Shown here: piece by piece, positions 7,145-28,844 of the stretch
How positions within the stretch are numbered: position 1 is the stretch's first letter
How the letters are laid out: every line of letters begins with the position of its first letter
Assembly: GCF_025905425.1 (NCBI RefSeq)
Contig: NZ_CP109603.1
Span: 4,790,501 to 4,854,500 of the forward strand
DNA: 64,000 bases
Direction of reading: 5' to 3'
DNA from: Pseudomonas putida
Lineage (GTDB): Bacteria; Pseudomonadota; Gammaproteobacteria; Pseudomonadales; Pseudomonadaceae
The notes under the pieces: model-generated
Seen by the model: the letters and a program-made list of their open reading frames with translations, nothing else
Databases searched by the model: none
Told to the model about the DNA's origin: nothing
Program-made: the position numbers and the translations under genes

Positions 7145-7714
7145 ATGTTTTGGTTATTGGCGCTGCTCGCCTACCTGCTCGGCTCGCTGTCCTTCGCCAT
7201 TGTCCTGAGCCGCCTGTCCGGTAGCCCGGACCCTCGTTCCAGCGGTTCGGGCAATGCCGGGGCCACCAACATGCTACGCCTGGCAGGCCGCAAGTTGGCG
7301 ATCCTGACCCTGCTTGGCGACCTGTGCAAGGGCTTGTTGCCAGTATTGCTCGCCCGCCTTGCCGGGCTCGACTTGCACGAACAGGCCTGGGTGGGCGTAT
7401 GCGCAGTGCTCGGCCACCTGTTCCCGCTGTACTTCCGCTTCCAGGGTGGCAAGGGCGTGGCGACCGCGGCCGGTATGCTCATGGCCCTGTACTTTCCGGC
7501 GGCACTGCTGGCCATCGCTGCCTGGCTGCTGACCTTCTACCTCACACGTACCAGCTCGCTGGCGGCGCTCATCGCCACGCCGCTGACCCTGCCCCTGCTC
7601 GCCTGGCGCGAGCCAGAGGCGTTGCTGCCGATCAGCGTGCTCACGGTGATGATCGTCTGGCGCCATCGCAACAACCTGCGCGACCTGTTCGCCGGGCGCG
7701 AACGCCACTTCTGA
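7145..7714 (+). CDS. plsY: acyl-phosphate glycerol-3-phosphate acyltransferase
   Basis: PlsY is an inner-membrane enzyme moving acyl groups from acyl phosphate to glycerol-3-phosphate, the first committed step of phospholipid synthesis. The 189-aa protein has the three conserved loops: [13 protein letters not shown] near residue 38, [18 protein letters not shown] near residues 95-112, and a C-terminal [10 protein letters not shown] block. About five hydrophobic segments are visible. It ends 6 bp before the convergent tsaD stop, so transcripts of the two genes must overlap at their 3' ends. Confidence 0.95.
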
Positions 7715-7720
7715 CAGGTT

Positions 7721-9473: not shown

Positions 9474-11456
9474 ATGGCCGGGCTGATTCCCCAGAGTTTC
9501 ATTGACGACCTTATCAACCGCCTCGACATTGTCGACGTGGTGAGTTCGCGCGTCCAGCTGAAAAAAACCGGCAAGAACTACTCCGCCTGCTGCCCGTTCC
9601 ACAAGGAAAAAACCCCCTCCTTCACGGTCAGCCCCGACAAACAGTTCTATTACTGCTTCGGCTGCGGCGCCGGTGGCAACGCCCTCGGCTTTGTCATGGA
9701 CCACGACAACCTGGACTTCCCCCAGGCGGTCGAGGAGCTGGCCCGCGCGGCAGGCATGGAAGTCCCACGCGAAGAGGGCCGTCGCGCACAAAAGCCGCGC
9801 CAGCCGACGGATTCGCCGCTGTACCCACTCCTAGATGCCGCCACCGAATTCTACCGCCAGGCCCTGCGCAACCACCCCACCCGCAAAGCAGCGGTGGATT
9901 ACCTCAAGGGCCGCGGCCTGTCCGGCGAGATTGCCCGCGACTTCGGCCTGGGCTTCGCGCCACCCGGCTGGGACAACCTGCTCAAGCACCTGGGCGCCGA
10001 CACCCTGCAGCAAAAGGTCATGATCGATGCCGGCCTGCTGATCGAGAACGCCGAGAGCGGCAAGCGCTATGACCGCTTCCGCGACCGCGTGATGTTCCCG
10101 ATCCGCGACAGCCGTGGCCGCGTGATCGCCTTCGGTGGCCGGGTGCTGGGCGACGACAAGCCCAAGTACCTCAACTCCCCGGAAACCCCGGTTTTCCACA
10201 AGGGCCAAGAGCTCTACGGGCTTTACGAGGCACGCAAGCACAACCGCAACCTCGACGAAATCATCGTCGTCGAGGGCTACATGGACGTCATCGCACTCGC
10301 CCAGCAGGGCCTGCGCAACGCCGTGGCCACCCTCGGCACCGCCACCAGCGAAGAACACCTCAAACGCCTGTTCCGCGTGGTGCCCAGCGTGCTGTTCTGC
10401 TTCGACGGCGACCAGGCCGGGCGCAAGGCTGCCTGGCGCGCGCTGGAGTCGACCCTGTCGACCCTGCAGGATGGCCGCCGAGCACGCTTTCTGTTCCTGC
10501 CCGAAGGCGAAGACCCGGACAGCCTGGTACGCGCCGAAGGCACCGACGCCTTCATGGCACGCATCAACCAGCACGCCCAGCCACTGGCGGATTACTTTTT
10601 CGAGCAACTGAGCGCCGAGGCCGACCCGCGCTCGCTGGAAGGCAAGGCGCATTTGGCGACCCTGGCCGCACCGTTGATCGAAAAAATCCCTGGCGCCAAC
10701 CTGCGTCAGCTCATGCGTAACCGCTTGAAGGAAATCACCGGCCTCGACCCGCAGCAAGTAGAGCAACTGGCCCAGCAACCTGCAGCCAGCAGCAGCGTAC
10801 CGGACTACGATCCGGGCTATGACTACGATGCCATGGCCAGCTACACGCCAGACTACGGCGACATGCCGCAGCACGACTACGCGCCGGCGCAGCAAGAGCA
10901 GCAATGGAAGCCGAACAAGGCCGGTGGCAAGAAGCCGTGGAGCGACAAACCCTGGGACAAGAATCGCAAAGGTGGCAAGCCCTGGCAGCAACGCGACGAG
11001 GCACCACCGCGCACCCCGGCCCCCGTGGAGCCCCCGACCCTGGCGGCTTTGCGCACCCTGCTGCACCACCCGCTGCTGGCCGGCAAGGTGGAAGATGCCA
11101 GCCACTTCGCCGACGAAGAGCACCTGTACAGCCAGTTGCTGGTGGCCTTGATCGAAGCCGCTCAGAAGAATCCTGGGCTAAGCTCAATGCAGTTGATCGC
11201 ACGCTGGCACGGCACCGAACAGGGCCGCTTGCTGCGCGCACTGGCCGAGAAGGAATGGCTGATCGTGGCCGACAACCTTGAACAACAGTTTTTCGACACT
11301 ATAACTAGCTTGTCCGCCCGCCAACGCGAGCGCAGCCTGGAACATCTGCTCAGGAAAGCACGTCAAAGCGAGTTGAGCAGTGAGGAAAAATCGCAGCTTC
11401 TCGCCCTGCTTAGCAGGAATGTTCCCGCACAAACGCCGACCTCATCTGGCGCGTGA
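9474..11456 (+). CDS. dnaG: DNA primase
   Basis: DnaG makes RNA primers at the replication fork. The 660-aa protein has an N-terminal CHC2 zinc ribbon (CCPFHKEKTPSFTV then YYCFGCG, residues ~38-65), the RNA polymerase core with the TOPRIM motif EGYMDVIAL near 268, and a C-terminal DnaB-interacting helical region. A low-complexity linker rich in Asp, Tyr, Gly, Trp and Lys (residues ~430-510) separates core and C-terminal domain. The ATG at 9474 gives the conserved MAGLIPQSFIDDL; a start 21 bp upstream adds residues without support. Second gene of the rpsU-dnaG-rpoD operon. Confidence 0.97.
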   Translation: MAGLIPQSFIDDLINRLDIVDVVSSRVQLKKTGKNYSACCPFHKEKTPSFTVSPDKQFYYCFGCGAGGNALGFVMDHDNLDFPQAVEELARAAGMEVPREEGRRAQKPRQPTDSPLYPLLDAATEFYRQALRNHPTRKAAVDYLKGRGLSGEIARDFGLGFAPPGWDNLLKHLGADTLQQKVMIDAGLLIENAESGKRYDRFRDRVMFPIRDSRGRVIAFGGRVLGDDKPKYLNSPETPVFHKGQELYGLYEARKHNRNLDEIIVVEGYMDVIALAQQGLRNAVATLGTATSEEHLKRLFRVVPSVLFCFDGDQAGRKAAWRALESTLSTLQDGRRARFLFLPEGEDPDSLVRAEGTDAFMARINQHAQPLADYFFEQLSAEADPRSLEGKAHLATLAAPLIEKIPGANLRQLMRNRLKEITGLDPQQVEQLAQQPAASSSVPDYDPGYDYDAMASYTPDYGDMPQHDYAPAQQEQQWKPNKAGGKKPWSDKPWDKNRKGGKPWQQRDEAPPRTPAPVEPPTLAALRTLLHHPLLAGKVEDASHFADEEHLYSQLLVALIEAAQKNPGLSSMQLIARWHGTEQGRLLRALAEKEWLIVADNLEQQFFDTITSLSARQRERSLEHLLRKARQSELSSEEKSQLLALLSRNVPAQTPTSSGA

Positions 11457-11470
11457 GGCCCATGCTCGGG

Positions 11471-11476
11471 TATAAT
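11471..11476 (+). promoter_or_regulatory. consensus -10 box upstream of rpoD
   Basis: A perfect TATAAT lies 48 bp before the rpoD start, in the short dnaG-rpoD gap. A -35 match at the right spacing is weak. It may be an internal rpoD promoter, as known for this operon class, giving rpoD expression independent of rpsU-dnaG. Confidence 0.45.
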
Positions 11477-11523
11477 CCTCGGCTTGTTTTTTGCCCGCCA
11501 AGACCTTCAGTGGATAGGGTGTT

Positions 11524-13371
<1,848 letters not shown>

Positions 13372-17262: not shown

Positions 17263-17339
17263 GGGCCTATAGCTCAGTTGGTTAGAGCAGAGGACTCATA
17301 ATCCTTTGGTCCACGGTTCGAGTCCGTGTGGGCCCACCA
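17263..17339 (+). tRNA. tRNA with CAU anticodon, probably tRNA-Ile2 (lysidine)
   Basis: A 77-nt cloverleaf with encoded CCA. Acceptor arms GGGCCTA and TGGGCCC pair fully apart from one T-G wobble; D loop GCTCAGTTGGTTAGAGC; anticodon loop CTCATAA; T arm GGTTCGAGTCC. CAU could be Met or Ile2. The C4-G69 and C5-G68 pairs match the TilS determinants that separate Ile2 from elongator Met, so I prefer Ile2, read as AUA after lysidine modification. It is the integration target of the adjacent element, whose left att core is the 3' part of this gene. Confidence 0.85.
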
Positions 17340-17340
17340 A
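17295..17340. repeat. attL core (46 bp, inside the tRNA gene)
   Basis: Identical over 46 bp to 28799-28844. It runs from the anticodon loop (CTCATAA) to one base past the CCA end, so the functional tRNA is kept intact at this end. Identity stops at 17341 (T versus A). Confidence 0.93.
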
Positions 17341-17347
17341 TGAAATC

Positions 17348-17386
17348 AATGGCTTACGCAAAATATGCGTAAGCCATTTGTGTTTT
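17348..17386 (+). terminator. element-borne terminator immediately after the tRNA
   Basis: AATGGCTTACGCA (17348-17360) pairs perfectly with 17366-17378 over 13 bp around a 5-nt loop, followed by TGTGTTTTT. It lies inside the element, 9 bp after the tRNA end, and replaces the chromosomal tRNA terminator that integration moved to 28852. Confidence 0.85.
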
Positions 17387-17400
17387 TGGGCCAAAATTTT

Positions 17401-17421
17401 CCCCGTTTCGTCCCCGTTTCG
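17401..17421. promoter_or_regulatory. candidate integrase arm-type repeats, left end
   Basis: Two CCCCGTTTCG copies at 17401 and 17412, an 11-bp period. The same motif with the same period occurs inside the right end at 28653 and 28664. Direct repeats at both inner ends of an integrated element are typical of tyrosine-integrase arm sites. The rest of the 376-bp gap to the next gene (17341-17716) shows no convincing ORF. Confidence 0.55.
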
Positions 17422-17716
17422 TCCGCGCCATCCTACGATGCCAGTGACCGATGCGGTCCCTGGCGCAAAGCGCAGGGGACAAGGCCAGTTCTTAGCCCAG
17501 ATTTCACGCAGCGCCGTGCCACGCGTATGTGAGATCTAACGCATCTTCCACGCACTGAACCAGACATGATCGCCCGCGATGCAAACCTGCTGACAAGATA
17601 TGGGCTTGGTGGCAGGGAGAGGTAAGCATCCAAATGCGCTCGCCTACCTAACGCAGTCCAAAGACGTGGCGGCACCGCGAGGGAGAGTCATGGCATACTG
17701 CCTCTAGGCTTTCAGA

Positions 17717-18391
17717 ATGGTTTGTAACGTGGATATCGATACTTTCAATCAGTGCCTGCTCTATATGCAGGCTAATACCAAAAATTCATTCGACGCTTAC
17801 CTCGGCATAGCCGGTACGCTAGCTGGCACCGGCTTTGGCTTCTGGTTGAACCATTGGGTAACAGGTAAAAAAGAGAAGCGAACCGAAACAGCGAAGAAGG
17901 ATTGCTGTGTTAGGGACATTCAGGAACTGAAGAGTATTTGCGGATACTCCTCAAAGGAAGTATCAGTATTGGTCGCAGACCTAGCGACAAAGAAGCGTCC
18001 CAAAGCACACAGTCTTCCATCCAATGTAAAGCTTATACTTTTAGAAAAAATGTATCCCGAAATCGCCAGCTCCTTTAGCGCAGACCAGCAAATATGGATA
18101 AAATTAATATTCAGATACATTGACGACATAAATGAAGGACTACGAGCCATAAACGACTCACCATCCGAGAAGTCCTTGTACAAAATATCTAAGACCCTAG
18201 TAAATTTACTCACATCACTGCACGATGTATTCAAGGTAACGCTATGCGTACTTGAGAATAAAGAGATCGAACTACCAAGCATTGAAACAATGATGCTCCA
18301 GTCAGGCGCAAATAAATCATCTATACTTGCGTACCGGACTCTGGTTCTGAACATCCAGCGTGATGACGCATTGCTTGGGCTAGATAGATAA
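17717..18391 (+). CDS. membrane-anchored protein of unknown function (satellite cargo)
   Basis: I do not recognise this 224-aa protein. One hydrophobic segment lies at residues ~28-48 (YLGIAGTLAGTGFGFWLNHW), followed by a Lys/Arg cluster (KKEKR), predicting one N-terminal membrane anchor with a cytoplasmic, largely helical C-terminal part. Cys residues occur near 62-75. Base composition is visibly AT-richer than the chromosome. It converges on the HEPN-motif gene with 42 bp between the stops, in the Psu-to-att interval where P4 relatives carry anti-phage genes, so a defence role is plausible but inferred from location only. The start has only a weak ribosome site; ATG at 17765 is an alternative. 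Confidence 0.7.
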   Translation: MVCNVDIDTFNQCLLYMQANTKNSFDAYLGIAGTLAGTGFGFWLNHWVTGKKEKRTETAKKDCCVRDIQELKSICGYSSKEVSVLVADLATKKRPKAHSLPSNVKLILLEKMYPEIASSFSADQQIWIKLIFRYIDDINEGLRAINDSPSEKSLYKISKTLVNLLTSLHDVFKVTLCVLENKEIELPSIETMMLQSGANKSSILAYRTLVLNIQRDDALLGLDR

Positions 18392-18433
18392 TTATGCATT
18401 AGAAATGCCTTCCCAAGACAATTTACATCCGAA

Positions 18434-19153
18434 TCAAACCTCGGGCTTTATCATGCCATGAACACCCATAAACTGGATATTTAAAAAGTAATCATTCCTG
18501 ACTAAAGTTTCTATTTGATTCGTTCTAAACATAACCGGGCGCGCATTAATCGATCCATCCCACACCTGAAATAGAAACTTCTCCGCCTCCTCATATCCAA
18601 TACCCCAATACTGTACAAACGCATTAAGGAATGTTGTCATTGCTATTAGAGCAGCCTTTGCGTCTTTGTCCGTATAAAGCTCGAAGTCCTCGCCAAGCAA
18701 CCTATGCTTAGTATCCTGCCCTTTCTTGGACGGCGGCTTTATCATTGTATGAGTTATACCGTTAGGCCCAGCGCTTGTCTCAGCTATCACCTTTCTAGAA
18801 TTCACCTTAGGATGAACCATGTTATTTCTATTTCCGATCATTTTGGCGATCGCCTGGACATGAGCATCACCACGGGGCAGCTCTTTGTCTGTATGCCACT
18901 GCAATACAAAATCAAACTTATCCAAAGTCTTCAGCTTATCTAGCTCCTTCGACAGCTTGTCGTTAATTTCGAGCGACTGAAGAAACGAGTTCGCCGCTGC
19001 CTCAATCGCGCAGTTTACAGACAAGATCGACGCCTTAGCCATCGCGCTGTTCAAGTCCGAGTTATCACAGGCGACGGCAGCCTCATACAGCATCACTGCA
19101 TCCGTGAAGATCAGCACGAAGTTGTTTTCCCAAATGGTTACCTCACGTCGCAT
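18434..19153 (-). CDS. HEPN-motif protein, putative RNase (satellite cargo)
   Basis: A 239-aa protein without a named family that I recognise. Residues 109-114 read RNNMVH, matching the Rx4-6H (commonly RNxxxH) signature of HEPN ribonucleases, and an upstream helix with NCAIEAAANSFL (~47-58) resembles the first HEPN helix. The remainder is alpha-helical and polar with no membrane segment. A clear GGAGAGG site precedes the ATG. AT-rich composition and position between the Psu-like gene and attL mark it as accessory cargo. HEPN domains recur in abortive-infection and toxin-antitoxin systems, so an RNA-cleaving anti-phage role is the leading hypothesis, not shown. Confidence 0.7.
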   Translation of the reverse strand: MRREVTIWENNFVLIFTDAVMLYEAAVACDNSDLNSAMAKASILSVNCAIEAAANSFLQSLEINDKLSKELDKLKTLDKFDFVLQWHTDKELPRGDAHVQAIAKMIGNRNNMVHPKVNSRKVIAETSAGPNGITHTMIKPPSKKGQDTKHRLLGEDFELYTDKDAKAALIAMTTFLNAFVQYWGIGYEEAEKFLFQVWDGSINARPVMFRTNQIETLVRNDYFLNIQFMGVHGMIKPEV

Positions 19154-19779
19154 ATCCTCTCCTATTGATCGTAATCGAATGATCGTCCTGGGCGCAGATT
19201 AGCACCCTGGTCAGGCCAGTTGGATGCTGCATGAGCATCACCTAGACAAATTTCAGCTGCGAAGAAAAATTGAGGCGTAAAATCACTTATCCCCCTCCCG
19301 CCGACGCGCTTCCCGTCGCAAAAAAGTGCAAAGGCTATGGGTAGTGCAACTGAATGCCCGGCCCAGGCCCGCTGCGGGCTCTGGCAACTGATCGGCCATT
19401 GCACTGAGTGCAAAGTTCTGCAAATTAATGCAAAGCCATTGCACGAGAAACTGGCAGATTGTGGCCGCGCTCTGCGGCATCAGACCCAATGGCAATAGGG
19501 GGGCGCCCGGATTTTTTCAAAATGCACCGCTCAGTTTTGACGGTGCTACTTCTGCTCCATAGGACGCAGGAATAAAGCCTTGCTCCCAGCAACCGCAAGG
19601 CTTTCAGGCTCGATAGAGAGGTTTTGGCGGTTGCACTCAACAGCACGGCAGAGCTGATTGCGGGGCAGCAGAATGTGGATCAAAGGACGCTGCGAAAAAT
19701 CCGCAAACCCACCGAGGCCGATTGCCCAGCCCCGGCAGCTACCGCGTGAGCCGCTTTGCTCGCCAAGCGGGGGGGTAGG
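19154..19779. other. 626-bp intergenic region with GTGCAA/TTGCAC cluster
   Basis: No convincing gene. Between 19326 and 19444 the hexamer GTGCAA or its complement occurs five times (19326, 19344, 19399, 19408, 19439), including an exact inverted pair TTGCAC-TGA-GTGCAA at 19399-19413, plus TGCAAA at 19419 and 19429. Another TTGCAC lies at 19633. A G-run then T-run (GGGGGGGCGCCCGGATTTTTT region, 19498-19517) follows. In P4 this neighbourhood holds cos, and a cis replication element is also possible; I cannot identify a cos site. Confidence 0.5.
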
Positions 19780-20505
19780 TCAGGATTTGGCGTTCTGGAA
19801 TTGCAGTTTGTGCAGTGCAGAAGGCGAGTTCACAACTGCCTCTTTCGCTAAGGCAGCAGGAATAGTGGCCAAAGCTGGCGGTCTCGCATCAACCTCGCCC
19901 CCATCAAAAATAATTTCCAGTTCTTTCCTGAAATACCCCCAGATAAGTTCATCCGTCTTTGCCTTTCTCTCGCGCTGGCCATTACAGGAACTCAAAAGAA
20001 CTTCGTTCGCTTCAAGATCGCGGAGACATAGCGCCCTGGACAAAATGAAGGCATTCAATAACTCATCGCGCAGACCATCGCGAGCCAGAATTCTTTCAAG
20101 CTGGCCTTGCCAGAAATCTTTATTGATAGCTCCCGGTTCTTTGACAATCGCCATGCGCGCCTTTGCTGCACGCAAGATCAAATTGTTTTCAAGCTCGGCA
20201 CGCGCCTCAACAGTAGCGCGCATGGTTTTGGCTTCTTTCCTGAGCTTCTCGGCGCGTTCAATTTCTTCATTGACTTTAGCTTGGTCGATATCACCCGTTG
20301 CTGCAAGCCTTTTCCAGGACGCATCAGTACGGCTAGCTTGCCCCTCAAGCTCAGCAGCCTTTTGTAGCAGACGTTGGTTTTCTTGTGTTACTGCCACTAG
20401 CTTACTTTGCAGGTCGACATACACAGCCTTATCCGCCTCAAAGCAATTTAAGCGATGTTGCAAATCAGGCGTAAGGCTCCCGACGTCTACGGCTTGGGTA
20501 TTCAT
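19780..20505 (-). CDS. Psu-like (polarity suppression / capsid decoration) protein
   Basis: A 241-aa helical protein. Its N-terminal half (ADKAVYVDLQSKLVAVTQEN, residues ~24-43, then Leu-rich helices) resembles the opening of P4 Psu, and a later segment DGLRDELLNAFILSRAL fits the Psu middle region. P4 Psu (190 aa) binds Rho and also decorates the satellite capsid; this protein is longer, mostly by a C-terminal tail of low complexity. AAGGA lies 9 bases before the ATG. It follows the GpO-like gene by 55 bp on the same strand, like sid-delta-psu clustering in P4. The assignment comes from recalled similarity and position and is moderate; a helical capsid-associated protein of another family is the alternative. 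Confidence 0.5.
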   Translation of the reverse strand: MNTQAVDVGSLTPDLQHRLNCFEADKAVYVDLQSKLVAVTQENQRLLQKAAELEGQASRTDASWKRLAATGDIDQAKVNEEIERAEKLRKEAKTMRATVEARAELENNLILRAAKARMAIVKEPGAINKDFWQGQLERILARDGLRDELLNAFILSRALCLRDLEANEVLLSSCNGQRERKAKTDELIWGYFRKELEIIFDGGEVDARPPALATIPAALAKEAVVNSPSALHKLQFQNAKS

Positions 20506-20560
20506 ATGATTGTTCCTTAATTATTAAATCATTATTTAGAGCGCCCTGATACGACCGTGG

Positions 20561-21139
20561 CTAGAGCAGTCGCTTGGTGGGTTTGGCTCGGTACTTGCGC
20601 GCCCTGAAGGCTCTCACCAGAGCACTTACATCCCGCTTAACGCTCTTCAAGTTGGTAGCCAACGACTTGCTCATGGGTGCAGGGCGCATCGGCATAGCTT
20701 TGGTGCGATAGGTCGCTGTATTGGCTTTTCTGGAGAAAAAGAGCTCTTGCGTACCGAGACTGGTGGGCTCATCAGTCACAGAAAGACCTGTCATATAAGA
20801 TTTACCAGACCCTGCGAAGTTTGGTGTTATCTCGACGCTAGAAAATAATTTTTCCCCGTCGCGGTTCAACTGGAGCAAGCGGGCGTTTGGCTTCATCTGT
20901 ACTTCTAATGCTACTTGGCCCTTTGCAAGCTCAGGATCATTATCAATTAAGCGTACAGAATAAACCGTACCGTGCGCGCCGGAGCCGCGCTGGTTATCGT
21001 TCCAGATAACGGCGGTATACTTAGATGGCGAATAGGTTTCGGCACAGTCACGTAAGTCCTGCGCTTTGATTTCTCGCCCGTCAGCAGTCGGCCCACTCGT
21101 AGCGACACGCTTCCAGGAGGTTATAAGTGATCGGGGCAT
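20561..21139 (-). CDS. shortened GpO-like capsid scaffold/protease homologue, catalytic His lost
   Basis: A 192-aa homologue of P2 GpO, the internal scaffold and maturation protease (284 aa in P2). Colinear blocks: GPTADGREIKAQDLRDCAET (P2 GDTCDGRVISAQDIQEMAET), then FSSVEITPNFAGSGKSYMTG and LSVTDEPTSLGTQEL. Against the P2 triad Asp19-His48-Ser107, Asp (residue 20) and Ser (101) are kept but His is Asn (49; the DNA reads AAC). The protein ends about where P2's C-terminal scaffolding domain begins and has instead a basic tail of ~55 residues. Start: ATG at 21139 with GAGG upstream, preferred over GTG at 21151. Helper capsid genes are absent, so it may act on a helper's capsid, as Sid does in P4. 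That role is inference. Confidence 0.8.
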   Translation of the reverse strand: MPRSLITSWKRVATSGPTADGREIKAQDLRDCAETYSPSKYTAVIWNDNQRGSGAHGTVYSVRLIDNDPELAKGQVALEVQMKPNARLLQLNRDGEKLFSSVEITPNFAGSGKSYMTGLSVTDEPTSLGTQELFFSRKANTATYRTKAMPMRPAPMSKSLATNLKSVKRDVSALVRAFRARKYRAKPTKRLL

Positions 21140-21268
21140 TAATAGCCTCACTCAGCGAAGGTAATAAATCTGACAAGTGCAACCGCTGCAAACTTGCGCA
21201 ACATGCCGCACCAACATGTTAATATTAACATACAGCAGACACCAATCCGTCCTTTTGAGGCGCAACGA

Positions 21269-21526
21269 ATGCGGATTTATTGTAGATCTTGTGGAAAAAA
21301 GGCACGTATTTTTAGAGTGGAAGAAGAATCACCAACCTATGCAAAACTCTATTGCATTTGTCTTGAGTCGCACTGCGGGCATAGCTTTGTTTCAGAGTTC
21401 AGTTTTTCTCATACTCTAAAGCCTTCAAGTTTAAAGAGAGTAGGAAACACAATTATTGATCGAATCTTGCAGCTCACTGAGGAACAGCAAAGACAGATAC
21501 TCCAGCAGCTGGACCTATTGACATGA
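21269..21526 (+). CDS. Ogr/Delta-type zinc-finger late transcription activator
   Basis: An 85-aa protein starting MRIYCRSCGKKARI with Cys pairs at 5/8 and 31/36 (CRSC and CLESHC), the zinc-binding pattern of P2 Ogr and P4 Delta, followed by GHSFVSEFSFSHTLKPS, which is strongly Ogr-like. These proteins bind RNA polymerase alpha and activate late promoters of both satellite and helper. ATG at 21269 is chosen because TGAGG lies 8 bases upstream and the family begins just before the first Cys pair. It is divergent from the GpO-like/Psu-like pair, so the 129-bp gap is the likely Delta-responsive promoter. The stop overlaps the next start by 4 bp. Confidence 0.85.
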   Translation: MRIYCRSCGKKARIFRVEEESPTYAKLYCICLESHCGHSFVSEFSFSHTLKPSSLKRVGNTIIDRILQLTEEQQRQILQQLDLLT

Positions 21527-21735
21527 CTAGGGCCGTACCTGGTGTGCTGACGTTCCAAGACCTGCAGCAGATTACAGGCTACCAACGGCGCTCTGATGTT
21601 GAGCGGTGCTTAATAGATCAAGGGGTAAGGATATTCCGTGGTCGCTCGGGCCCCTGGACAACTATCGATCTAATCAATCAGGCGGGGGGTATCAAACCGG
21701 ACAGCGATGATAAGTATGGTGCAGACGTCATTTGA
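21523..21735 (+). CDS. small DUF4224-like protein
   Basis: A 70-aa protein, VLTFQDLQQITGYQRRSDVERCLIDQG, matching the pattern of the DUF4224 phage family (hydrophobic start, ELTGYxxPSxQxxxL-like core, GVxxxxxRxG). Function unknown; the family is common in temperate phages and their satellites and may be DNA-binding. It overlaps the Delta-like stop by 4 bp (ATGA) and is presumably co-transcribed with it. Confidence 0.65.
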   Translation: MTRAVPGVLTFQDLQQITGYQRRSDVERCLIDQGVRIFRGRSGPWTTIDLINQAGGIKPDSDDKYGADVI

Positions 21736-21910
21736 TGCCAGACGGCAACGACTCGAAGCGGCTCGCCAAGGGGATGGGGGGTCACGGTCGGCGTCTTGCC
21801 TCAACCCCACCACCTGGCGTGCAAAACACTCGCATAGGTCAAAGTTTCAGATATCTGTCAACAAAAACCACCGACACCCCCTATTTACCGCGTCTGATTT
21901 CAAAAAAACG

Positions 21911-22116
21911 GGGAACGCGGGATTTTCGGGAAAACCCTTCTAGAATACGGCCTCCAGAGCATTTTTCTGTTCCCGTATTTTTTTGACCGGGAACAAAATG
22001 GGTGGGCCGTACCCTATTAAACAGAGTTGTGTTCCCATGTTCCCACTCTTGTGTTTTAAATGGGAACGCCAGAAGCCCCGTATTCTCTGGCCGTTCCCGG
22101 TGTTCCCGGTGTTCCC
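21911..22116. repeat. iteron cluster GTTCCC/GGGAAC, candidate replication origin
   Basis: Nine GTTCCC or GGGAAC hexamers: 21911, 21969, 21989, 22030, 22038, 22061, 22093, 22102 and 22111. The last three are direct GTTCCCGGT-type repeats with an exact 9-bp period, and several earlier ones form inverted pairs around A/T-rich runs. The array sits in the 429-bp gene-free interval after the helicase gene (21736-22164). Iterons next to a primase/helicase are how P4 alpha protein recognises its origin, so this is the best origin candidate in the element. Confidence 0.55.
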
Positions 22117-22164
22117 GATCAAAAATAGCTCTGCGCCCATGTCTTGTGGGGTAGCGCGGCCGGC

Positions 22165-23937
22165 TTACCCCTCTTTCTCTAGCCTATCGGGGTCAATCAC
22201 GTAAAAACGGGAATTCCCACCACCTGGCGTGCGTCGCTTTTTCGTCCACCGGTTGTCTTCACTATCCTTTTGCACCAAAGCGTCCACGCCGATCAAGGCG
22301 CGTACGATTCGTGCCTGGCTAAAACCCGAGGCAGCCTCTTTAAGACCTGGAGGGTTAAACAAATAGAGACGCTTATCGGATTCAACCTGGTAGTAACCAG
22401 CGCGTTCACGAACAGTGACATTGGCATGTTCTGCGCATATGTCTGAGAAACGACTATCACTGTGTAGGGCGATAAATTCGCTAATACCACTGAGTATCTG
22501 CCGATCTTCTGCACTACCGTCACCCATCGTTTGCAGCCATTCGTTGAACAGCGTTTGGCAGCCCTTGACGGCAGTCCCTTTCGGCCATTTCAGCAGTTTG
22601 CGGCGAATAGCCGATTCACCAGCCAGCGCCATGATTGCGAAGCGATCCGCTACCCGGCCTGCCTGTGAACTCTCGGTGGCAAAGGCTTCCCGTACCTGCC
22701 GGAATGTGCTGTGCAGATCTTCCGGATGCTGAATGAGCGACTCCACGAACGCCGGGCCTACGTGGCCGTAATGCTGGGTGACGGCATCGCTCACAACTCG
22801 GTGAAACTCCTGGCCCGTCAACCCATGCACGTCATCAAAAGCGCGGTGTGCGCGAGTACCCGCATTGACATCCACCATGCGCAGTTCGGCACCGGCGTGG
22901 GCGTTGCTGCCACCAATGGCGGCGTGGTCTGACAGTGAACGCTCCCCGCTGGATAGCGCCAGGACACGCCAGGTCAACTTGGCACGACCCTCTCGCTCCC
23001 TGGTCATGGTGCCCTTACCCATGCCGTTGGCGATGGCATACGCCATTTCCTGAACCCGCTTTGGGTCAGCCCGCTTGATTTCGTCCAGGATCAGGATGGT
23101 GTCATTACGCGATGCGGCCTCGATCTCGATACCGCCCTTCGATACGTCCCAGGACGCGGCGAACGCCCCAGGATTGCCCCATACGGACGCTGCGAGGAGC
23201 TGGGCAAGGGATTTACCACTCGACGAATCACCCACCAGGTGCACGCCGCCGCCATTCACCCCCACCTTGGCGAGCAAAGGGCCCGCCAGGGCACAGCAAA
23301 CTGACAGGATCAACACGGGGTTGCCCACACACCGGGCGGCAATTTCGGTCTGCCAACCGTCGACGGTGCCCTTGCTGGTGAAAATGTTGGCTGCCCTGCC
23401 AGAGTCTTGGAAACGCACGTTGTCCCCGCCAATGACGCGAGACGGCAGTACAAACGCCCCCGACTCATGCCAGCCCGGCTTGCTGGTGGTAGCGATCACC
23501 AACTCAGGTGACTGGTGGCTGGCCAAGTAGGGCACGATCTGGCGGCGCTGGTGGTGCTCGATGACAAGGCCGCGACTCAGCAGTACCTTCAATACCTCAT
23601 CACCCTTCCCACCCAGTGCCTCCATAGGCATGACCCATTCGATGCGCCGTCCCCGGTGAGTGAACGACAGCAAGCGGCCTATGGTGCCGTCCTCTGAATT
23701 AATCGTTTCAGCTTCTACATTCAAGGGAGCACAGATCCAGTGATCGACCGGAATGGCCTTCTCATCAGGCCCGCTTTGCTTCAATCCGTGATACCAGGTG
23801 CCGGCCTTATAGAGCTTGCCCTCCACGGTGCAAGGGTGCTCGTAAACGGCGTAGCGGGGCCGCTCCAGCTTTTCGAATGCAGGTGCTTGTGGCTCGCCCA
23901 CCAGACTCAAGGTCGGGGGCTTTTCATGTGTGCTCAT
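22165..23937 (-). CDS. DUF927 domain ATPase/helicase of the satellite
   Basis: A 590-aa DUF927-family protein. A Walker A loop GDSSSGKS occurs near residue 245, a Walker B-like ILILDEIKRAD near 288, and arginine-rich segments follow, as in superfamily 3-type helicases of integrated elements. The N-terminal ~200 residues hold the DUF927 lead-in (FTHRGRRIEWVMPMEAL). With the upstream TOPRIM primase it would replace the single P4 alpha protein: primase and helicase as two overlapping genes (4-bp ATGA overlap). It ends beside the iteron cluster. Confidence 0.85.
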   Translation of the reverse strand: MSTHEKPPTLSLVGEPQAPAFEKLERPRYAVYEHPCTVEGKLYKAGTWYHGLKQSGPDEKAIPVDHWICAPLNVEAETINSEDGTIGRLLSFTHRGRRIEWVMPMEALGGKGDEVLKVLLSRGLVIEHHQRRQIVPYLASHQSPELVIATTSKPGWHESGAFVLPSRVIGGDNVRFQDSGRAANIFTSKGTVDGWQTEIAARCVGNPVLILSVCCALAGPLLAKVGVNGGGVHLVGDSSSGKSLAQLLAASVWGNPGAFAASWDVSKGGIEIEAASRNDTILILDEIKRADPKRVQEMAYAIANGMGKGTMTREREGRAKLTWRVLALSSGERSLSDHAAIGGSNAHAGAELRMVDVNAGTRAHRAFDDVHGLTGQEFHRVVSDAVTQHYGHVGPAFVESLIQHPEDLHSTFRQVREAFATESSQAGRVADRFAIMALAGESAIRRKLLKWPKGTAVKGCQTLFNEWLQTMGDGSAEDRQILSGISEFIALHSDSRFSDICAEHANVTVRERAGYYQVESDKRLYLFNPPGLKEAASGFSQARIVRALIGVDALVQKDSEDNRWTKKRRTPGGGNSRFYVIDPDRLEKEG

Positions 23938-24950
23938 GGCTTGCAGCTCTTGTTGGATTGACCCGCAAGCCAGAGGTGCAGGTCGTTAAAATCGGATAGG
24001 GCGGAGGGGGCGTTAGAGGGCCACTCAGGGAAAACCACACGAGCATCGGCAGCACGAGCGGCTTGGTTGGCAGCACGCTTTCCCGGATTACTAGCCGTGC
24101 TGCGGTCATCGTCACCGGCAATAACTAGGTCAAGCGTGGCGCCATAGCGCTCACGCATGGCCATGGCTACAGCCTTAAGGTTTCCGGCATTCATCGCACA
24201 GACCACCGGACACCCGGTGGTTTGGTGCAGCGTGGCGCCCGTGGCCCACCCCTCACACACATACAGGCGGCATCCCTCGGAGAGTTTGCCCAGTGGCGAA
24301 TAGCAGCCTTGGACACGCCCACCCATCAGAAAGCGTTTGCTGCCATCCGGCGTGATGATCTGCAGGTTCACCAAGCGCCCGTTATCACAGAGCGGCACCA
24401 CCAACCGCCCTTGGCCCAACTGGCGCACTAGGTGCGGTTTCACCCCCTTGGCCAACAGGTAGGTGTGCAGTGGATCGGCGGCCTTCGCTACTTTCCAGAG
24501 CTGCGCGGCTTCACGGGCAGCCTGGAGCTGCTTTTCCTCCTGGAGCTGTTGTTCACGCAGGCGCCAAGAGGCACGCTCGCGCTCGGACACTTGTTGGCGT
24601 TCCTGTAGCTGCTGAGCATCCGTAACCGTAAGCTTGAAGAGGCCCAGGCCCAGGCGCTCGTCCACTTCCTTGGCCGCATCCAGTTGACCGCATCCGCGCA
24701 GATAGGCCAGCAGCGACACCAGGTCGCCGCCATGGGCACCGCTGTCAGCGAAATCATTCCACCGGCCTGTGTCGAGCGATACACCGAAGGAACCGGCTTG
24801 CCGATCCCCCCGGGCGATGTTCGCCGCCACCCACTCGCGGCCTTTACGTTTGCCTTCAGGAAGCCACTCCGCCAAAAGCACATCAGCCGCACTCAGGGCT
24901 CCGGCTGCTGCATGACGAATCAATTCAACAGGTCGCAAGTGGCTCATCAT
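23934..24950 (-). CDS. TOPRIM-domain primase of the satellite
   Basis: A 338-aa primase-like protein. The N terminus has GREWVAANIARGDRQAGSFG and WNDFADSGAHGGDLVSLLAY, typical of phage/plasmid primases with a zinc-less N-terminal fold. A TOPRIM core follows: LYVCEGWATGATLHQTTG (~230-247) and the acidic DLVIAGDDDRS (~274). A coiled, Glu/Gln-rich linker occupies ~105-145. Start at the first ATG of ATGATGAGC with AAGGAG 5 bases upstream (24947 is the alternative). It overlaps the HTH gene upstream and the helicase downstream, one translationally coupled block for element replication. Confidence 0.85.
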   Translation of the reverse strand: MMSHLRPVELIRHAAAGALSAADVLLAEWLPEGKRKGREWVAANIARGDRQAGSFGVSLDTGRWNDFADSGAHGGDLVSLLAYLRGCGQLDAAKEVDERLGLGLFKLTVTDAQQLQERQQVSERERASWRLREQQLQEEKQLQAAREAAQLWKVAKAADPLHTYLLAKGVKPHLVRQLGQGRLVVPLCDNGRLVNLQIITPDGSKRFLMGGRVQGCYSPLGKLSEGCRLYVCEGWATGATLHQTTGCPVVCAMNAGNLKAVAMAMRERYGATLDLVIAGDDDRSTASNPGKRAANQAARAADARVVFPEWPSNAPSALSDFNDLHLWLAGQSNKSCKP

Positions 24951-25189
24951 TTCTGCTCCTTTCGGAGAAACGTTGTCCCACGGACCTGGAGTAGCGCTTC
25001 TTCGGCTTGCTGCGTTGCTTGCTGCGCCAAGTCTTCCATGTCGATGAGCACGCCTTTTGTGCCGTCAGTCTTTGGAATGGTGCGATAGGCCCCATTCTTG
25101 ATCTCACGACGGATCGAAGAGATGGACTGACCGGAGAGCTGCGATAGCTGCTCTATCGTAAGTGGGGAGGTTTTAACGCCAATTTTCAT
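24947..25189 (-). CDS. small helix-turn-helix protein
   Basis: An 80-aa protein with a predicted helix-turn-helix: TIEQLSQLSGQSISSIRREI (residues ~10-29), followed by a short wing-like turn and an acidic, Gln-rich helix. It resembles excisionase/MerR-type DNA-binding proteins. ATG at 25189 is chosen because GGAGAC lies 5 bases upstream and it overlaps the preceding stop by 4 bp; the longer in-frame extension has no such site. Likely a regulator of the replication operon; target unknown. Confidence 0.7.
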   Translation of the reverse strand: MKIGVKTSPLTIEQLSQLSGQSISSIRREIKNGAYRTIPKTDGTKGVLIDMEDLAQQATQQAEEALLQVRGTTFLRKEQK

Positions 25190-25800
25190 TGAACGTCTCC
25201 CTTGCAAGCGCCCACAGCGATGAAGCGATGGTTTTTGTCCAGCTTGTAAAAAACTCCGGCCAATAAACCCTTCTCTCCTATGTAACCAACAGCGGTGCGA
25301 TAGCGCTGCGCCCGACCATCCCAATATTTGAGGCGAATTTCCCCCTGCTCACCGGCACAGACCGTCCCACCGACTCCTGCGCTGGCTGTACCCTGGGCTC
25401 CGGTAGAGGCGGTACCGTGATCTCCGGCATTTGCTACCCCACAGTGCCCAGCAACGGCGATACCGCAAGTAAGAACAGAGGCCACACCGCCATCACCAGC
25501 GGTGGCACGTCCCCACTCTCCAGCACTTGCCGTCCCGAACATTCCTGCCAGCGCTGAGCCCCGATCGCCCACGACTGCCATTCCGCTTTCCCCGGTCATG
25601 GCAGTGCCACTGTCCCCGCCAATTGCCGTTCCGTAGTCGCCCGCCTGGACGCTATCTTGGTCACCAACCAAGCGATATGTCCGAATAGGCTTCACATACC
25701 CGACTTGAGCGCTGTGCGCATCCAGGTGCAACACATCAAAGGCTTTTTCCAGGCAAGCCGAACCCGTCAGCGCATCACTGCGCTCTTTGAAAATGTTCAT
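25186..25800 (-). CDS. octapeptide-repeat (beta-roll-like) protein of unknown function
   Basis: A 204-aa protein whose middle (residues ~54-157) is 13 tandem eight-residue repeats with consensus GxxGTAxA, such as GDYGTAIG, GDSGTAMT, GEWGRATA and GDHGTAST. Regular Gly/Ala octads of this type are expected to form a beta-roll or left-handed solenoid, as in trimeric-adhesin heads. The flanks look globular: N-terminal VLHLDAHSAQVGYVKPIRTY and C-terminal EIRLKYWDGRAQRYRTAVGY. Similar repeat proteins occur in phage early regions without assigned function. No signal peptide. It is in the alpA-to-helicase operon, overlapping the HTH gene by 4 bp. Confidence 0.75.
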   Translation of the reverse strand: MNIFKERSDALTGSACLEKAFDVLHLDAHSAQVGYVKPIRTYRLVGDQDSVQAGDYGTAIGGDSGTAMTGESGMAVVGDRGSALAGMFGTASAGEWGRATAGDGGVASVLTCGIAVAGHCGVANAGDHGTASTGAQGTASAGVGGTVCAGEQGEIRLKYWDGRAQRYRTAVGYIGEKGLLAGVFYKLDKNHRFIAVGACKGDVQ

Positions 25801-25900
25801 CTCAATCGTCCCGTAATGAGGGGAGGAAGATCACAGGGCTGATACGCCTGTAACCCGCTTCGCAACAGCTCGAATCAATGGCAACCAGTGCCCCAGGTGA

Positions 25901-26524
25901 TCAATCGGCCGGATTCAGCAGCGGCGATGTGCAGCCCATGGGTGCAGGGCACTGCCCTGCCGGGGTGTGGGCGAGCAGCCCACGCTGGTAAAGAGTCGAG
26001 CGTAGCGAGCTGAGCCCCGCAGGGGCGAAGGCATCAGGGTTGTTGATTTGTTGCTTGCTCATTGCGCACCCTTGGCTTTCCAGGGTTCGAACAATGTTCA
26101 TGTGGTCGTTGTAGCGCTTGAGACGTACAGAGAGAGATGAATTTGCGCGGAGGGCGCTCAAAGCCATGCGGCGGTGAGCTAGTGCGCGGATTGCGGACGG
26201 AATGAGGGAGGTCATCGGTAGTGCTCCTGTTACTGATAAGGAGCTGCCACAAACCGTCGCCAAACGATTATGGGTGGCAGCCATGCGCAGGTTGGCGAAC
26301 CGGGGTAACAGGAACCCGGCAGACCCGAGGGTCTCCCGCGCACGGCCACCATAACAGGACATTGCGGGCACAAAAAAAGCGCCTGCAATGATGGTATGGG
26401 CGCCTATGCGCCTGTTACTAGTCGGGTCGCCAAACCCGGTCGCTGAATTTGCAACGACAGCCAAACGATAGCGGCGCACACGTGACTTTGCAACCCTCGG
26501 TTGGGTCGCGGTGTTAATCGCCAT
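25901..26524 (-). CDS. Ash-like leader-region protein
   Basis: A 207-aa ORF in the position of the P4 immunity/ash region. The segment AFFVPAMSCYGGRARETLGS (residues ~49-68) followed by RMAATHNRLATVCGSSLSVT resembles the short Ash-family proteins that overlap immunity RNA in P4-like elements. A good GGAAGGG site precedes the ATG, 3 bp after the alpA stop, so translation is likely coupled to alpA. The C-terminal third (GLLAHTPAGQCPAPMGCTSP) looks like read-through of structured DNA. The DNA carries the A-B-C repeats listed as an ncRNA, so part of this frame may be constrained by RNA function rather than by protein. Confidence 0.45.
   Translation of the reverse strand: MAINTATQPRVAKSRVRRYRLAVVANSATGFGDPTSNRRIGAHTIIAGAFFVPAMSCYGGRARETLGSAGFLLPRFANLRMAATHNRLATVCGSSLSVTGALPMTSLIPSAIRALAHRRMALSALRANSSLSVRLKRYNDHMNIVRTLESQGCAMSKQQINNPDAFAPAGLSSLRSTLYQRGLLAHTPAGQCPAPMGCTSPLLNPAD
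26226..26440 (-). ncRNA. candidate P4 CI-type immunity RNA region (repeats A, B, C)
   Basis: Three related sites. A: CCTGTTAC (26226) ... TCGCCAAAC (26257). C: CCTGTTAC (26411) ... TCGCCAAAC (26427). B, between them, is inverted: GTTGGCGA (26291) ... GTAACAGG (26305). Thus a central segment is complementary to two flanking segments. P4 uses exactly this plan: seqB in the CI RNA pairs with seqA and seqC in the leader to terminate transcription. The transcript boundaries are unknown; strand is assumed to follow the operon. Confidence 0.5.
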
Positions 26525-26527
26525 GGC

Positions 26528-26743
26528 TTAACCCTTCCTGTTGGTGAGGAAGGCATCTACAGCTTCAGCATCCCAGCGCAGGACACGGCCAGCACGGATC
26601 GGTATGGGAAAGTTGTCGATTTTGGTCCAACGCCAGAACGTCGTACGGCTGATCTGGTACAGGGTGCATAGCTGTTCGGTGGTGGCGCGGATACCAGCAC
26701 GCGGAACATTCGGAACTGGCGCATTGTCAATGGCGGGTGTCAT
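26528..26743 (-). CDS. AlpA family phage transcriptional regulator
   Basis: A 71-aa AlpA/MerR-like DNA-binding protein: TTEQLCTLYQISRTTFWRWT (residues ~21-40) is the helix-turn-helix, followed by FPIPIRAGRVLRWDAEAVDAF, the conserved AlpA core. In P4-like elements AlpA (Vis) controls early promoters and excision. It is the first gene of the minus-strand replication/regulation block and leads directly into the Ash-like leader. Confidence 0.88.
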   Translation of the reverse strand: MTPAIDNAPVPNVPRAGIRATTEQLCTLYQISRTTFWRWTKIDNFPIPIRAGRVLRWDAEAVDAFLTNRKG

Positions 26744-26945
26744 CGTCGATTTCTCTAAGCGCTATGAAAAACCGAGACGGTGGAGCACGAGTGGAAGGCA
26801 GATGTTGCATGGCCCCACCACTCGCAATACAGTTCCGGCTGGGCTTACGACCCATGTCGAAATCTCTGCAACCGCTTCACCTCTCGGAACGTGTACTGGT
26901 TTTTCCCATGTACGCAGGAGGGCGCTGATATCGCCCTCATCTGAT

Positions 26946-26974
26946 AAGCCCCGGTACGGCAAATACCGGGGCTT
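26946..26974. terminator. bidirectional hairpin terminator upstream of alpA
   Basis: AAGCCCCGGTA (26946-26956) pairs perfectly with 26964-26974 around a 7-nt loop, an 11-bp GC-rich stem; CTTATG follows on the plus strand. It probably stops integrase transcription from entering the alpA promoter region, or plus-strand readthrough. Confidence 0.7.
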
Positions 26975-27187
26975 CTTATGCCTGCAGTACACACAAGTCC
27001 ACGAAGTCATTCTGGTCAGAACCCTCTAATTCGGGTGTTTCAGAGATGTTCGTGGAGGTCATCCAGTGATCGAATGGTATCTACGGTTTCTCACTTAAAA
27101 CAATGCGCAAAGAGCACAGAAAAGCCGGTCAAGCAGCTGATTTAGAAGGCTTTTAGCTTTCTCGTTATCACTCTGAGGGATATGCAC

Positions 27188-27208
27188 GGATATGTGGGCC
27201 ACATATCC
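27188..27208. promoter_or_regulatory. 21-bp near-perfect palindrome, candidate operator
   Basis: GGATATGTGG-G-CCACATATCC: 10-bp perfect arms around one central base, 17 bp from the integrase stop. An extra GGATATG half-copy starts at 27178. No T-run follows on either strand, so a protein-binding site is more likely than a terminator. Confidence 0.5.
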
Positions 27209-27224
27209 ATTAACCGAGACGAAC

Positions 27225-28646
27225 TTACCGTTCGTCGGATTTTTTTGGGCGACGGGTTAATAACACCACATTGGCAGGTGAATCGCCGTTGACCAGGCCA
27301 TCTAAGTACCTACCCCACTGCTCCAGAGCCGCGCGCTTCTCAGGCAGGTAGCTATAACGGTCGTAGTGCTTTGCCTGCACTCCACTACGGCCATGTGATA
27401 GCAGCCAAGCCCGCACCTCAGCGCCGACGCCCAGGTGTGCCAGGAGTGATTCAGCCGTCACGCGGACATTCTTCCAGGTGAACGCACGGGACTTACCGGC
27501 TGCCGAAAGTGATCGACCTGCATCGATAAACATGGCCGAGACAGTATTTGGATTAGCAGACTTCCCGAGCGTCAGCGAGAAAGGCCCAGGGCCAATGCGG
27601 TCATCTAGCAGCGGCTTGAGGATCTGGCCGATTCGCTCGGTGATCGGTAGCAAATGCTCCCACGCTTGGAGCTTGCGCCCTTTCCCGTCCATAAGGCACA
27701 GCGTGTCGTCTGTGACGGCCTCCCAAGGCACAGTGCATAGCTGGGTGAGGCGTTGACCACCCAGGTAAATGGCTGCCTTGGCGATCGCCGCGTGCCTGAC
27801 GGGCAGTGTGTCGAGGTGCCTCAGAAGGGCTCCCAACTCATCAGGTGTGAGCGACTCGGTGTCACCGGCCCCAGTGCCTTGAGTGACAGGAATGTCTCTC
27901 ACTGGGTTGGAGCGGATCGAAAAGACCTTGCCCTCATTGGCTATCCGCTCAGGAGCAAGGTGGGCTTTTGCAGCATGGCTAAAGGCGGCTTGCAGGTAGC
28001 GGCGTAGCTTGTCACACGTCGTGCGCATGCCGTTGGCCGATGTCCCCGCAGCCTTATGGCCAATCCCCCGCCCCTTGGGTTTACGACCCAGCACGCCTGC
28101 CAGGATGAGCTGTATATCCTCTGGCTCGATGTCGGCAGCCACACGGTCTACCAGCCCCGGATGGTAGTCCTTCACATGCAGTCGAAACATGTTGTCGATT
28201 TCCTTGGCGCTCACCCTGCCCTCTGACACCATTTTGCTCACGTAACTATCCAGCAGCTCACCAAAGGTACCGCGCCGCGCCAAAGCCTCCGCCTGGCGCT
28301 GTAGCCGAAGCCTTTCCACCTCCATCGCCGCGCTATGCTCTGCCAGCTGTACCAGGTACTTTCCAATACCGCCTGCGGCCCCTACCTCGCCAGCCAGGCG
28401 CATAGCATCAGACCTCAGCCCATCTAGTGTTCGCTCACCTGTTCCTGGTCGGGGCTTGCGGGCTAGCGTGCCAAGCGGCAGACGCTGATCGCTGGTGGGT
28501 GTTCTCTCACGGTAGTAGGCGTTAATGGCTCCTGATGCCTTGCGCTCCAGGAGCAACGTTCCTTTGCCTCGCGAACCGACTGGCTCCGACTTCCTGGTCT
28601 TGACCGCATGAGCTTCCAGGTCGGTCAATCTTGCACGTTTTGCCAT
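27225..28646 (-). CDS. tyrosine-type site-specific integrase
   Basis: A 473-aa P4-type tyrosine recombinase that would integrate and excise the element at the tRNA. C-terminal catalytic features: Arg in GGQRLTQL (~295), the second Arg in WKNVRVT (~395), SHG (~420) and the nucleophile region KHYDRYSYL (~430). At the HxxR box the usual His is Lys (KNVR), a rare but known substitution class. The N-terminal half holds a SAM-like core-binding region after an arm-binding start rich in basic residues. GGGGAAGG precedes the ATG. It is adjacent to attR, as expected. Confidence 0.92.
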   Translation of the reverse strand: MAKRARLTDLEAHAVKTRKSEPVGSRGKGTLLLERKASGAINAYYRERTPTSDQRLPLGTLARKPRPGTGERTLDGLRSDAMRLAGEVGAAGGIGKYLVQLAEHSAAMEVERLRLQRQAEALARRGTFGELLDSYVSKMVSEGRVSAKEIDNMFRLHVKDYHPGLVDRVAADIEPEDIQLILAGVLGRKPKGRGIGHKAAGTSANGMRTTCDKLRRYLQAAFSHAAKAHLAPERIANEGKVFSIRSNPVRDIPVTQGTGAGDTESLTPDELGALLRHLDTLPVRHAAIAKAAIYLGGQRLTQLCTVPWEAVTDDTLCLMDGKGRKLQAWEHLLPITERIGQILKPLLDDRIGPGPFSLTLGKSANPNTVSAMFIDAGRSLSAAGKSRAFTWKNVRVTAESLLAHLGVGAEVRAWLLSHGRSGVQAKHYDRYSYLPEKRAALEQWGRYLDGLVNGDSPANVVLLTRRPKKSDER

Positions 28647-28652
28647 TGCCTT

Positions 28653-28673
28653 CCCCGTTCCTTCCCCGTTTCG
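28653..28673. promoter_or_regulatory. candidate integrase arm-type repeats, right end
   Basis: CCCCGTTC at 28653 and CCCCGTTTCG at 28664, 11 bp apart, mirror the pair at 17401/17412. They overlap the integrase ribosome-binding region, so integrase bound here could also repress its own synthesis. Confidence 0.55.
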
Positions 28674-28798
28674 GACGAAAAGCTAGGGTACTGACTGAAA
28701 CGCCGGAAAACAAAGAAACGTGGAAACTGTCTGTTTTTACTGGATTTTATGGAATAGCAGGAACGGTAAGCGACACCGCGAAACGCCACCTTAGCTCG

Positions 28799-28844
28799 CT
28801 CATAATCCTTTGGTCCACGGTTCGAGTCCGTGTGGGCCCACCAA
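28799..28844. repeat. attR core (46 bp, displaced tRNA 3' end)
   Basis: Second copy of the 46-bp core at 17295-17340. Upstream of it the tRNA 5' half is missing, so this copy is not a functional tRNA. Confidence 0.93.

Follow-up and report, generated by a model that had tools for sequence, protein, structure and literature searches.

A short GpO homologue without the catalytic histidine beside a Sid-fold gene in a probable P4-type satellite of Pseudomonas putida

The C-terminal domain of phage P2 gpO is required for the formation of large procapsids, and in the presence of Sid gpO is dispensable for assembly and needed for viable P4; the role of gpO inside P4 procapsids is called not fully settled (PMC7552001). 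CpmB of SaPI1 and the helper scaffold have a C-terminal motif in common and compete for coat protein (PMC5644958), and Ccm of SaPIbov5, itself a homologue of a capsid protein, redirects the shape of the shell (PMC8569155). The arrangement described here lies in a 64,000-nucleotide stretch of the Pseudomonas putida assembly GCF_025905425.1 (contig NZ_CP109603.1, positions 4,790,501 to 4,854,500), here called the window, within an 11,550-bp element that is best read as a P4-type satellite of Pseudomonas P2-like phages. The element encodes a 192-residue GpO homologue, termed mini-GpO (20561..21139, minus strand), in which Asn takes the place of the catalytic His and which is followed by a gene for a Sid-fold protein. 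Mini-GpO very probably acts in the capsid.

Mini-GpO starts with the ATG at 21139 and consists of a GpO protease domain (residues ~8-136) and a basic C-terminal extension. Its match to the Pfam family Phage_GPO (PF05929) covers residues 9-146 with an E-value of 6.9e-39 and a score of 134.5 bits, against a curated cut-off of 33.6, and in PHROGs it matches phrog_73 (E 4.1e-52) and phrog_11933 (E 5e-30), annotated as head scaffolding protein and head maturation protease. The S107A mutant of P2 gpO is protease-deficient, which supports S107 as a protease residue (PMC7552001). When mini-GpO was aligned with the record sequence of P2 gpO, with phi3 GpO and with distant GpOs, residues D19, H48 and S107 of P2 gpO corresponded to D20, N49 and S101 of mini-GpO, and the active-site region is gap-free against 22 aligned relatives. 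The columns of D19 and H48, which we take to be the remaining triad members of P2 gpO, are invariant in this alignment except for the Asn of the window and a Ser in homologue P0004. The Asp-His-Ser triad of PF05929 is thus broken by N49, with Asp20 and Ser101 retained, as the initial annotation had stated in describing a homologue of the protease half of GpO. Mini-GpO is a GpO homologue from which GpO protease activity is not expected. The codon in the His48 column is AAC (20993..20995, minus strand), likewise AAC in the mini-GpO of Pseudomonas guariconensis locus L062. A rescue of the active site by His56, which the initial annotation had named as an example, failed, since that column holds Tyr or Phe in P2 and the five distant GpOs aligned; it is His in phi3 and Pseudomonas GpO forms.

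The protein was also said to end where the scaffolding domain should start, and this did not hold. The P2 domain boundary F141/C142 aligns with F135/S136 of mini-GpO, F141 closing the P2 protease domain (1-141), and 57 residues follow F135. The extension proper (residues 137-192; 20564..20731, minus strand) comprises a linker start, a helix and the tail KRLL, as delineated by hhalign against long GpOs, by tail counts and by an AlphaFold2 (AF2) model, which is weak (predicted local distance difference test score, pLDDT, 57.6) and places the helix at 158-182. When 35 short and 78 long forms were compared by hhalign (short P0064, P0070, P0107, P0015, P0035 and P0036 and long P0086, of less than 290 residues, having been dropped), the short C-terminal region matched the linker start and last helix of long GpOs with P values of 4e-4 and 2.6e-3, against 0.19 for a reversed control, a weak but significant match. 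Among the listed homologues, a C-terminus of the form [KRH][VL]L was present in 67 of 79 long Pseudomonas GpOs and in 31 of 41 short ones, its background being about 1% of positions, ends included (82/7,872 and 158/24,084). The motif is absent from P2 gpO and occurs as a variant in phi3, so the tail belongs to the Pseudomonas GpO group. Mini-GpO has in this respect a C-terminal motif in common with the helper-type scaffold, as CpmB does. The middle of long GpOs is acidic, with a mean net charge of -14, and the last 55 residues of the short forms are basic (+12). The PF05929 match stops at position 146 of 268 in a protein of 192 residues, and a full C-terminal scaffolding domain is lacking. Since the extension matches the linker start and last helix and carries the same type of tail, the lost part would be internal: about 110-120 residues of the acidic GpO middle appear to be absent, and the last helix and basic tail of Pseudomonas P2-like GpO appear to be kept, for which reason the earlier description of the protein as scaffold-less was too strong.

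A search of 5.8 billion proteins yielded 755 homologues. Among the best 120 of these, the catalytic column holds His in 35, Asn in 4 and Ser in 2 of the 41 proteins of at most 215 residues, and His in all 79 longer ones; the Asp and Ser columns are retained in all 120. When a maximum-likelihood tree was built from the protease domains of 72 sequences (a third of the long ones included), 40 short sequences, among them those of L062 and of genome G354 (locus L101), formed one clade with support 100/98. Short homologues P0064, P0070 and P0107 fall outside it and were excluded from counts of the satellite form. His is kept in 33 of the 40, and the seven sequences without it (5 Asn, the window included, and 2 Ser) form one nested clade with support 98/93, the Ser sequences nested among the Asn ones. 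On this phylogeny, mini-GpO has a single origin among the Pseudomonas P2-like GpOs; most of its lineages retain the triad, and the His was lost once. The Asn, whose conservation in other satellites the initial annotation had proposed as a check, is not typical of the satellite forms.

The 33 intact triads bear in opposite ways on two other explanations. They favour mini-GpO as the maturation protease of small procapsids, supplied without promoting large shells, with the Asn/Ser lineage either decaying or using another residue, and the correspondence of the P2 domain boundary with F135/S136 is in keeping with this. Decay is, however, opposed by strong purifying selection on the protease domain of two Asn copies, those of the window and L062, and no other His is catalytic by alignment, His56 having been tested, so that supply of a protease appears quite improbable. 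The same triads count against a brake on maturation, in which mini-GpO would sit on coat or protease sites but not cut and would in this way poison helper GpO, delaying helper maturation to the satellite's advantage or the helper's harm, while p241, the Sid-fold protein, alone set capsid size: a dead enzyme cannot be the general role of a family in which 33 of 40 clade members have the full triad. A triad broken while its domain is conserved fits such a brake, and the kept tail would permit competition, but the satellite itself would need matured shells, and we regard this explanation as unlikely.

A scan of 398 Pseudomonas genomes for GpO, at E 1e-20 or better, gave 107 matches in 89 genomes. 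Open frames of at most 215 residues among them were that of the window (G000), that of G276, both in satellites, and a 141-residue piece in G212 (match 1-102); G354 has a longer open frame, but its protein is of 195 residues from an MPRSL start, inside a satellite. Apart from the G212 piece, left aside here, the same truncation in full P2-like prophages, which would have spoken against the earlier proposal, was not found among these 107 matches. GpN was also present at 59 of 60 printed long-GpO loci of more than 4 kb, the exception, L079, ending within GpO; at L051 and L094 GpO is fragmented or shortened, and the neighbours in L051 are broken too. Several mini-GpO homologues (among P0002-P0037) occur only on contigs of 9.5-12.5 kb, about one element in size, as if the DNA that was assembled had come from satellites in free or packaged form.

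Selection on the dead domain was estimated from one pair, window versus L062. Over codons 1-140 there are 28.5 synonymous and 7.5 nonsynonymous changes, a ratio of nonsynonymous to synonymous rates (dN/dS) of 0.065. If these 36 changes are placed at random, 25.3 nonsynonymous ones are expected on average, and 7.5 or fewer occurred in 0 of 2000 simulations; the C-terminal part is looser (dN/dS 0.26). In this pair, the protease domain thus appears to be under strong purifying selection despite the loss of the His. Because both copies carry Asn and belong to the single-loss clade, the domain would be kept for something other than catalysis, unless Asn was acquired twice or through gene exchange.

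Immediately downstream of mini-GpO lies the gene for p241 (19780..20505, minus strand), a protein of 241 residues whose AF2 model has a pLDDT of 83.6. In a Foldseek comparison of the model with 350,542 PDB chains, P4 Sid (7jw1_E) ranked first, with template modelling (TM) scores of 0.58/0.60 and probability 1.00, and Sid was matched via VIA as well, 219 of 235 residues being aligned. The published Sid/Psu layout consists of a helical body, a linker loop at about 200-219 and a C-terminal helix (PMC7552001). The p241 model has the same layout, with helices to residue 199, a loop at 200-227 and a helix at 228-240. The likeness is one of fold only, no sequence similarity of p241 to Sid having been found; a fold search of BFVD gave nothing at E 0.001, and PDB sequence searches with either of two profiles found no relative. 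Psu does not occur among the matches listed from the two fold comparisons, an absence to which no weight is given. The model suggests that p241 is a Sid-like external scaffold that would bind the capsid from outside and change its size. Of the 398 Pseudomonas genomes, five have p241, counting the own genome and also G357, where the match is weak and covers 58 residues; of 390 genomes sampled from the order, one has it, again the own genome. It stands beside mini-GpO in the three loci with flanking DNA (window, L062 and L101), and mini-GpO, earlier put forward as an alternative to P4 Sid, in fact accompanies a Sid-like protein.

The two genes belong to a module that begins with an Ogr/Delta-type late activator of 85 residues from its ATG (21269..21526, plus strand; PF04606, E 5.8e-10 on the longer frame 21194-21523), divergent from mini-GpO. 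The order Delta, then mini-GpO or a P2-type capsid protein, then p241 recurs in five satellites: the slot between Delta and p241 holds mini-GpO in the window, L062 and L101, and a P2-type major capsid protein in L061 (a 13.4-kb IMG/VR contig; 7365-8372) and L100 (genome G036; 11398-12417), with PF05125 E-values of 6.3e-112 and 4.1e-120. Among reference head genes, the capsid protein alone was matched in L061 and L100, and these two satellite GpNs were not resolved as one group in a capsid-protein tree (12% of bootstrap trees). In all five satellites, therefore, the slot contains one or the other helper-derived capsid part, always with a Sid-fold gene. The module was present in 4 of 4 genomes whose DUF927 relative is at least 83% identical and in 0 of 20 fetched elements with DUF927 proteins 39-59% identical. 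A role outside the capsid, or a passenger gene with no current role, might be suggested by the lack of an NCBIfam family for mini-GpO and by the two related satellites that do without it. This is very unlikely given one clade of conserved length, purifying selection in one pair, adjacency to p241 in the three loci with flanking DNA and the presence of another capsid gene in the slot of mini-GpO elsewhere. The contig of the capsid-bearing L061 satellite also carries a Mob_Pre relaxase gene (10896-11909; PF01076, E 7.1e-34).

A non-coding 32-bp element at 19279..19310 (plus strand) with a 19-bp core (19284-19302) is taken as the cohesive end (cos) site on sequence grounds. The core is exact in all five satellites; the element adjoins p241 in the window, L062, L100 and L101, lies elsewhere in L061, and in the mini-GpO satellites points opposite to mini-GpO. 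Among the Pseudomonas genomes, 64 of 398 contain the core, and a reversed pattern occurred in none of those tabulated. Four of the 76 core sites are the satellites themselves. For 39 sites, a GpO gene of the same orientation stands 18.0-22.6 kb upstream, and these sites serve 39 of 51 close GpOs (at least 53% identity) and 0 of 53 others; this pairing used GpO matches at E 1e-20 or better and so misses prophages that have other GpOs or are split over contigs. The cos-like element closes the record of phage UFJF_PfPro, which also starts within it. The core in close P2-like prophages and at the UFJF_PfPro end gives the satellites a cos common to P2-like phages, in the same way as the first 19 bases are common to P4 and P2, and Pseudomonas P2-like phages are the likely helpers. 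At least 120 viral contigs have the core, and p241 is on one of these 120, the L061 contig. A further copy of the site near the portal gene was considered and rejected, the matches there being at chance level and the site lying at the opposite end of the late gene block. No further GpO passes the cut-off in the source genome, which hence has no resident P2-like helper of that kind.

Joining the precedents of P2 gpO, CpmB and Ccm, mini-GpO may be seen as a CpmB-like partner that works inside the shell while a Sid-like cage surrounds it. With an active helper, its Ogr/Delta protein would switch on a late operon of mini-GpO and p241 from a hypothetical promoter. As judged from its fold, its neighbourhood and the element size, p241 would cage helper GpN hexamers from outside, like P4 Sid, to give small shells that fit the 11.55-kb genome. 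Mini-GpO would form the internal half, its protease domain, C-terminal helix and basic tail docking on helper GpN, and perhaps the portal, at the site of helper GpO; lacking the acidic middle, it would aid or tolerate small procapsids and compete with the scaffold of large shells, in the manner of CpmB of SaPI1. Most family members, with an intact triad, could also cleave GpN and release their own tail, and in the window's lineage the dead protease would make mini-GpO a binding-only pseudoprotease that leaves maturation cleavage to helper GpO. The capsid protein of L061 and L100 would be a Ccm-type substitute. As a specific model for the window, a capsid-redirecting module of Sid-fold external scaffold and internal mini-GpO, a pseudoprotease in this lineage, stands at about an even chance. 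The wider claim, that Pseudomonas P4-type satellites have a two-sided module of a Sid-fold external cage and an interchangeable internal mini-scaffold or substitute coat protein, with a selected pseudoprotease controlling helper assembly by binding alone in one lineage, is tentative and slightly less probable than that. Gene architecture, His loss, selection on the dead domain (in one pair), the common tail, the Sid fold match and the common cos-like site are what the sequences show; docking, competition and capsid size are its conjectural parts. The earlier idea of a satellite-borne dead GpO relative acting on the helper capsid gains from the pairing with p241, the common cos-like site and the purifying selection, and loses its two qualifiers, the alternative to Sid and the missing scaffold.

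The element (17295-28844) lies between two identical 46-bp repeats at tRNA-Met, the left (17295..17340, plus strand) in the 3′ part of the tRNA gene (17263-17339) and the right at 28799..28844 (plus strand). A probable tyrosine integrase (27225..28646, minus strand), recognised by position and by eye from a motif, adjoins the right repeat; neither Pfam nor NCBIfam has a family for it, and an open reading frame (ORF) of L062 is 96% identical. An excisionase-like gene (21523..21735, plus strand; phrog_1266, E 1.4e-20) follows the activator. The minus strand then carries a DUF927 gene of the replication block (22165..23937; PF06048, E 3.9e-74), a Toprim primase gene (23934..24950; PF13362, E 2.7e-13; phrog_2249, E 2.6e-61), a Cox-like regulator (24947..25324; phrog_575, E 2.3e-9) and a small helix-turn-helix regulator, presumably AlpA-like (26528..26743; PF12728 HTH_17, E 1.3e-6). 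No capsid, portal, terminase or tail families were found by Pfam and PHROGs among the element ORFs tested, in line with the initial annotation of a satellite without capsid genes; nor was the Psu family, from which a divergent member could escape. The element thus resembles P4-like satellites in its Ogr/Delta activator, in an integrase seen by eye and in tRNA integration without a head and tail gene set of its own, and does not have the complete capsid gene set of capsid-forming phage-inducible chromosomal islands. A TGT-N12-ACA motif at 21217-21234 was dropped as a candidate Delta site, being present in 3 of 68 Pseudomonas P-O intergenic regions and missing from 3 of the 5 satellites.

Two accessory genes (17717-18391 and 18434-19153) lie between the attachment site and the cos-like site; neither has a Pfam, NCBIfam or PADLOC family above cut-off, and no PADLOC defence family was found in four accessory ORFs. 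The first has weak relatives (26-30%) on the cos-bearing viral contigs L225, L233 and L253, as if cargo gathers near cos. A 26-bp near-palindrome (25937-25962) in ORF 25901-26524 recurs exactly in two P2-like prophage loci, L065 and L072, where it lies to the left of the portal gene, and over 23-25 bases in L073, L083, L084 and L087. Outside the window, the source genome has a second DUF927 and primase element (G000:C1:4970953-4972737; L141) without the Delta, mini-GpO and p241 module.

With a Sid-fold gene, a common cos-like site and a helper-derived scaffold, the Pseudomonas satellites would carry the P4 strategy into a further order. They would also unite two separately known strategies, an external cage (Sid, TcaP) and an internal scaffold that competes (CpmB, Rcm), and the combination suggests a new means by which viral parasites reshape stolen particles. 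As the His was lost once in a clade that is otherwise catalytic, dead and live versions exist in nature with which the protease and binding roles of GpO in small-capsid assembly could be separated. A literature search of mainly open-access coverage, weak evidence of novelty, found no satellite GpO homologue and no P4-like Pseudomonas satellites.

Among known systems, P4 is alike in size (11,624 bp against 11,550 bp, or 11.62 and 11.55 kb), in its Ogr/Delta gene, primase and excisionase-type regulators, and in having a Sid-fold protein and a cos-like site common to P2-like phages. It differs in that its record lists no gpO homologue, whereas the present element has mini-GpO, or a capsid gene, before the Sid-fold gene; in having one alpha protein in place of DUF927 and a Toprim primase; and in a Sid without sequence similarity to p241, while the present host is Pseudomonas and no Psu was found among the tested ORFs. 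Full-length Phage_GPO proteins such as P2 gpO have the protease domain, the domain boundary, two of the three catalytic residues and, in Pseudomonas forms, the C-terminal tail in common with mini-GpO, and differ from it in having the middle and the catalytic His and in that mini-GpO stands outside the Q-P-O-N-M-L cluster. CpmB of SaPI1 and Rcm of SaPIpT1028 are likewise short satellite proteins with the C-terminal coat-binding region of a helper-type scaffold (PMC5644958; PMC12409344); mini-GpO is, in contrast, a direct GpO homologue with a protease domain, for which competition and a change of size are proposed by analogy. Ccm of SaPIbov5 (PMC8569155) has a putative parallel in the P2-type capsid protein that fills the slot in L061 and L100; the latter differs in the Sid-fold protein alongside and does not occur in the element of the window. 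Finally, PMC10945586 describes another external scaffold encoded by a satellite outside Enterobacterales, 53 residues longer than Sid, convergent and of other tertiary structure, whereas p241 has the length of Sid and matches it over nearly its whole length.
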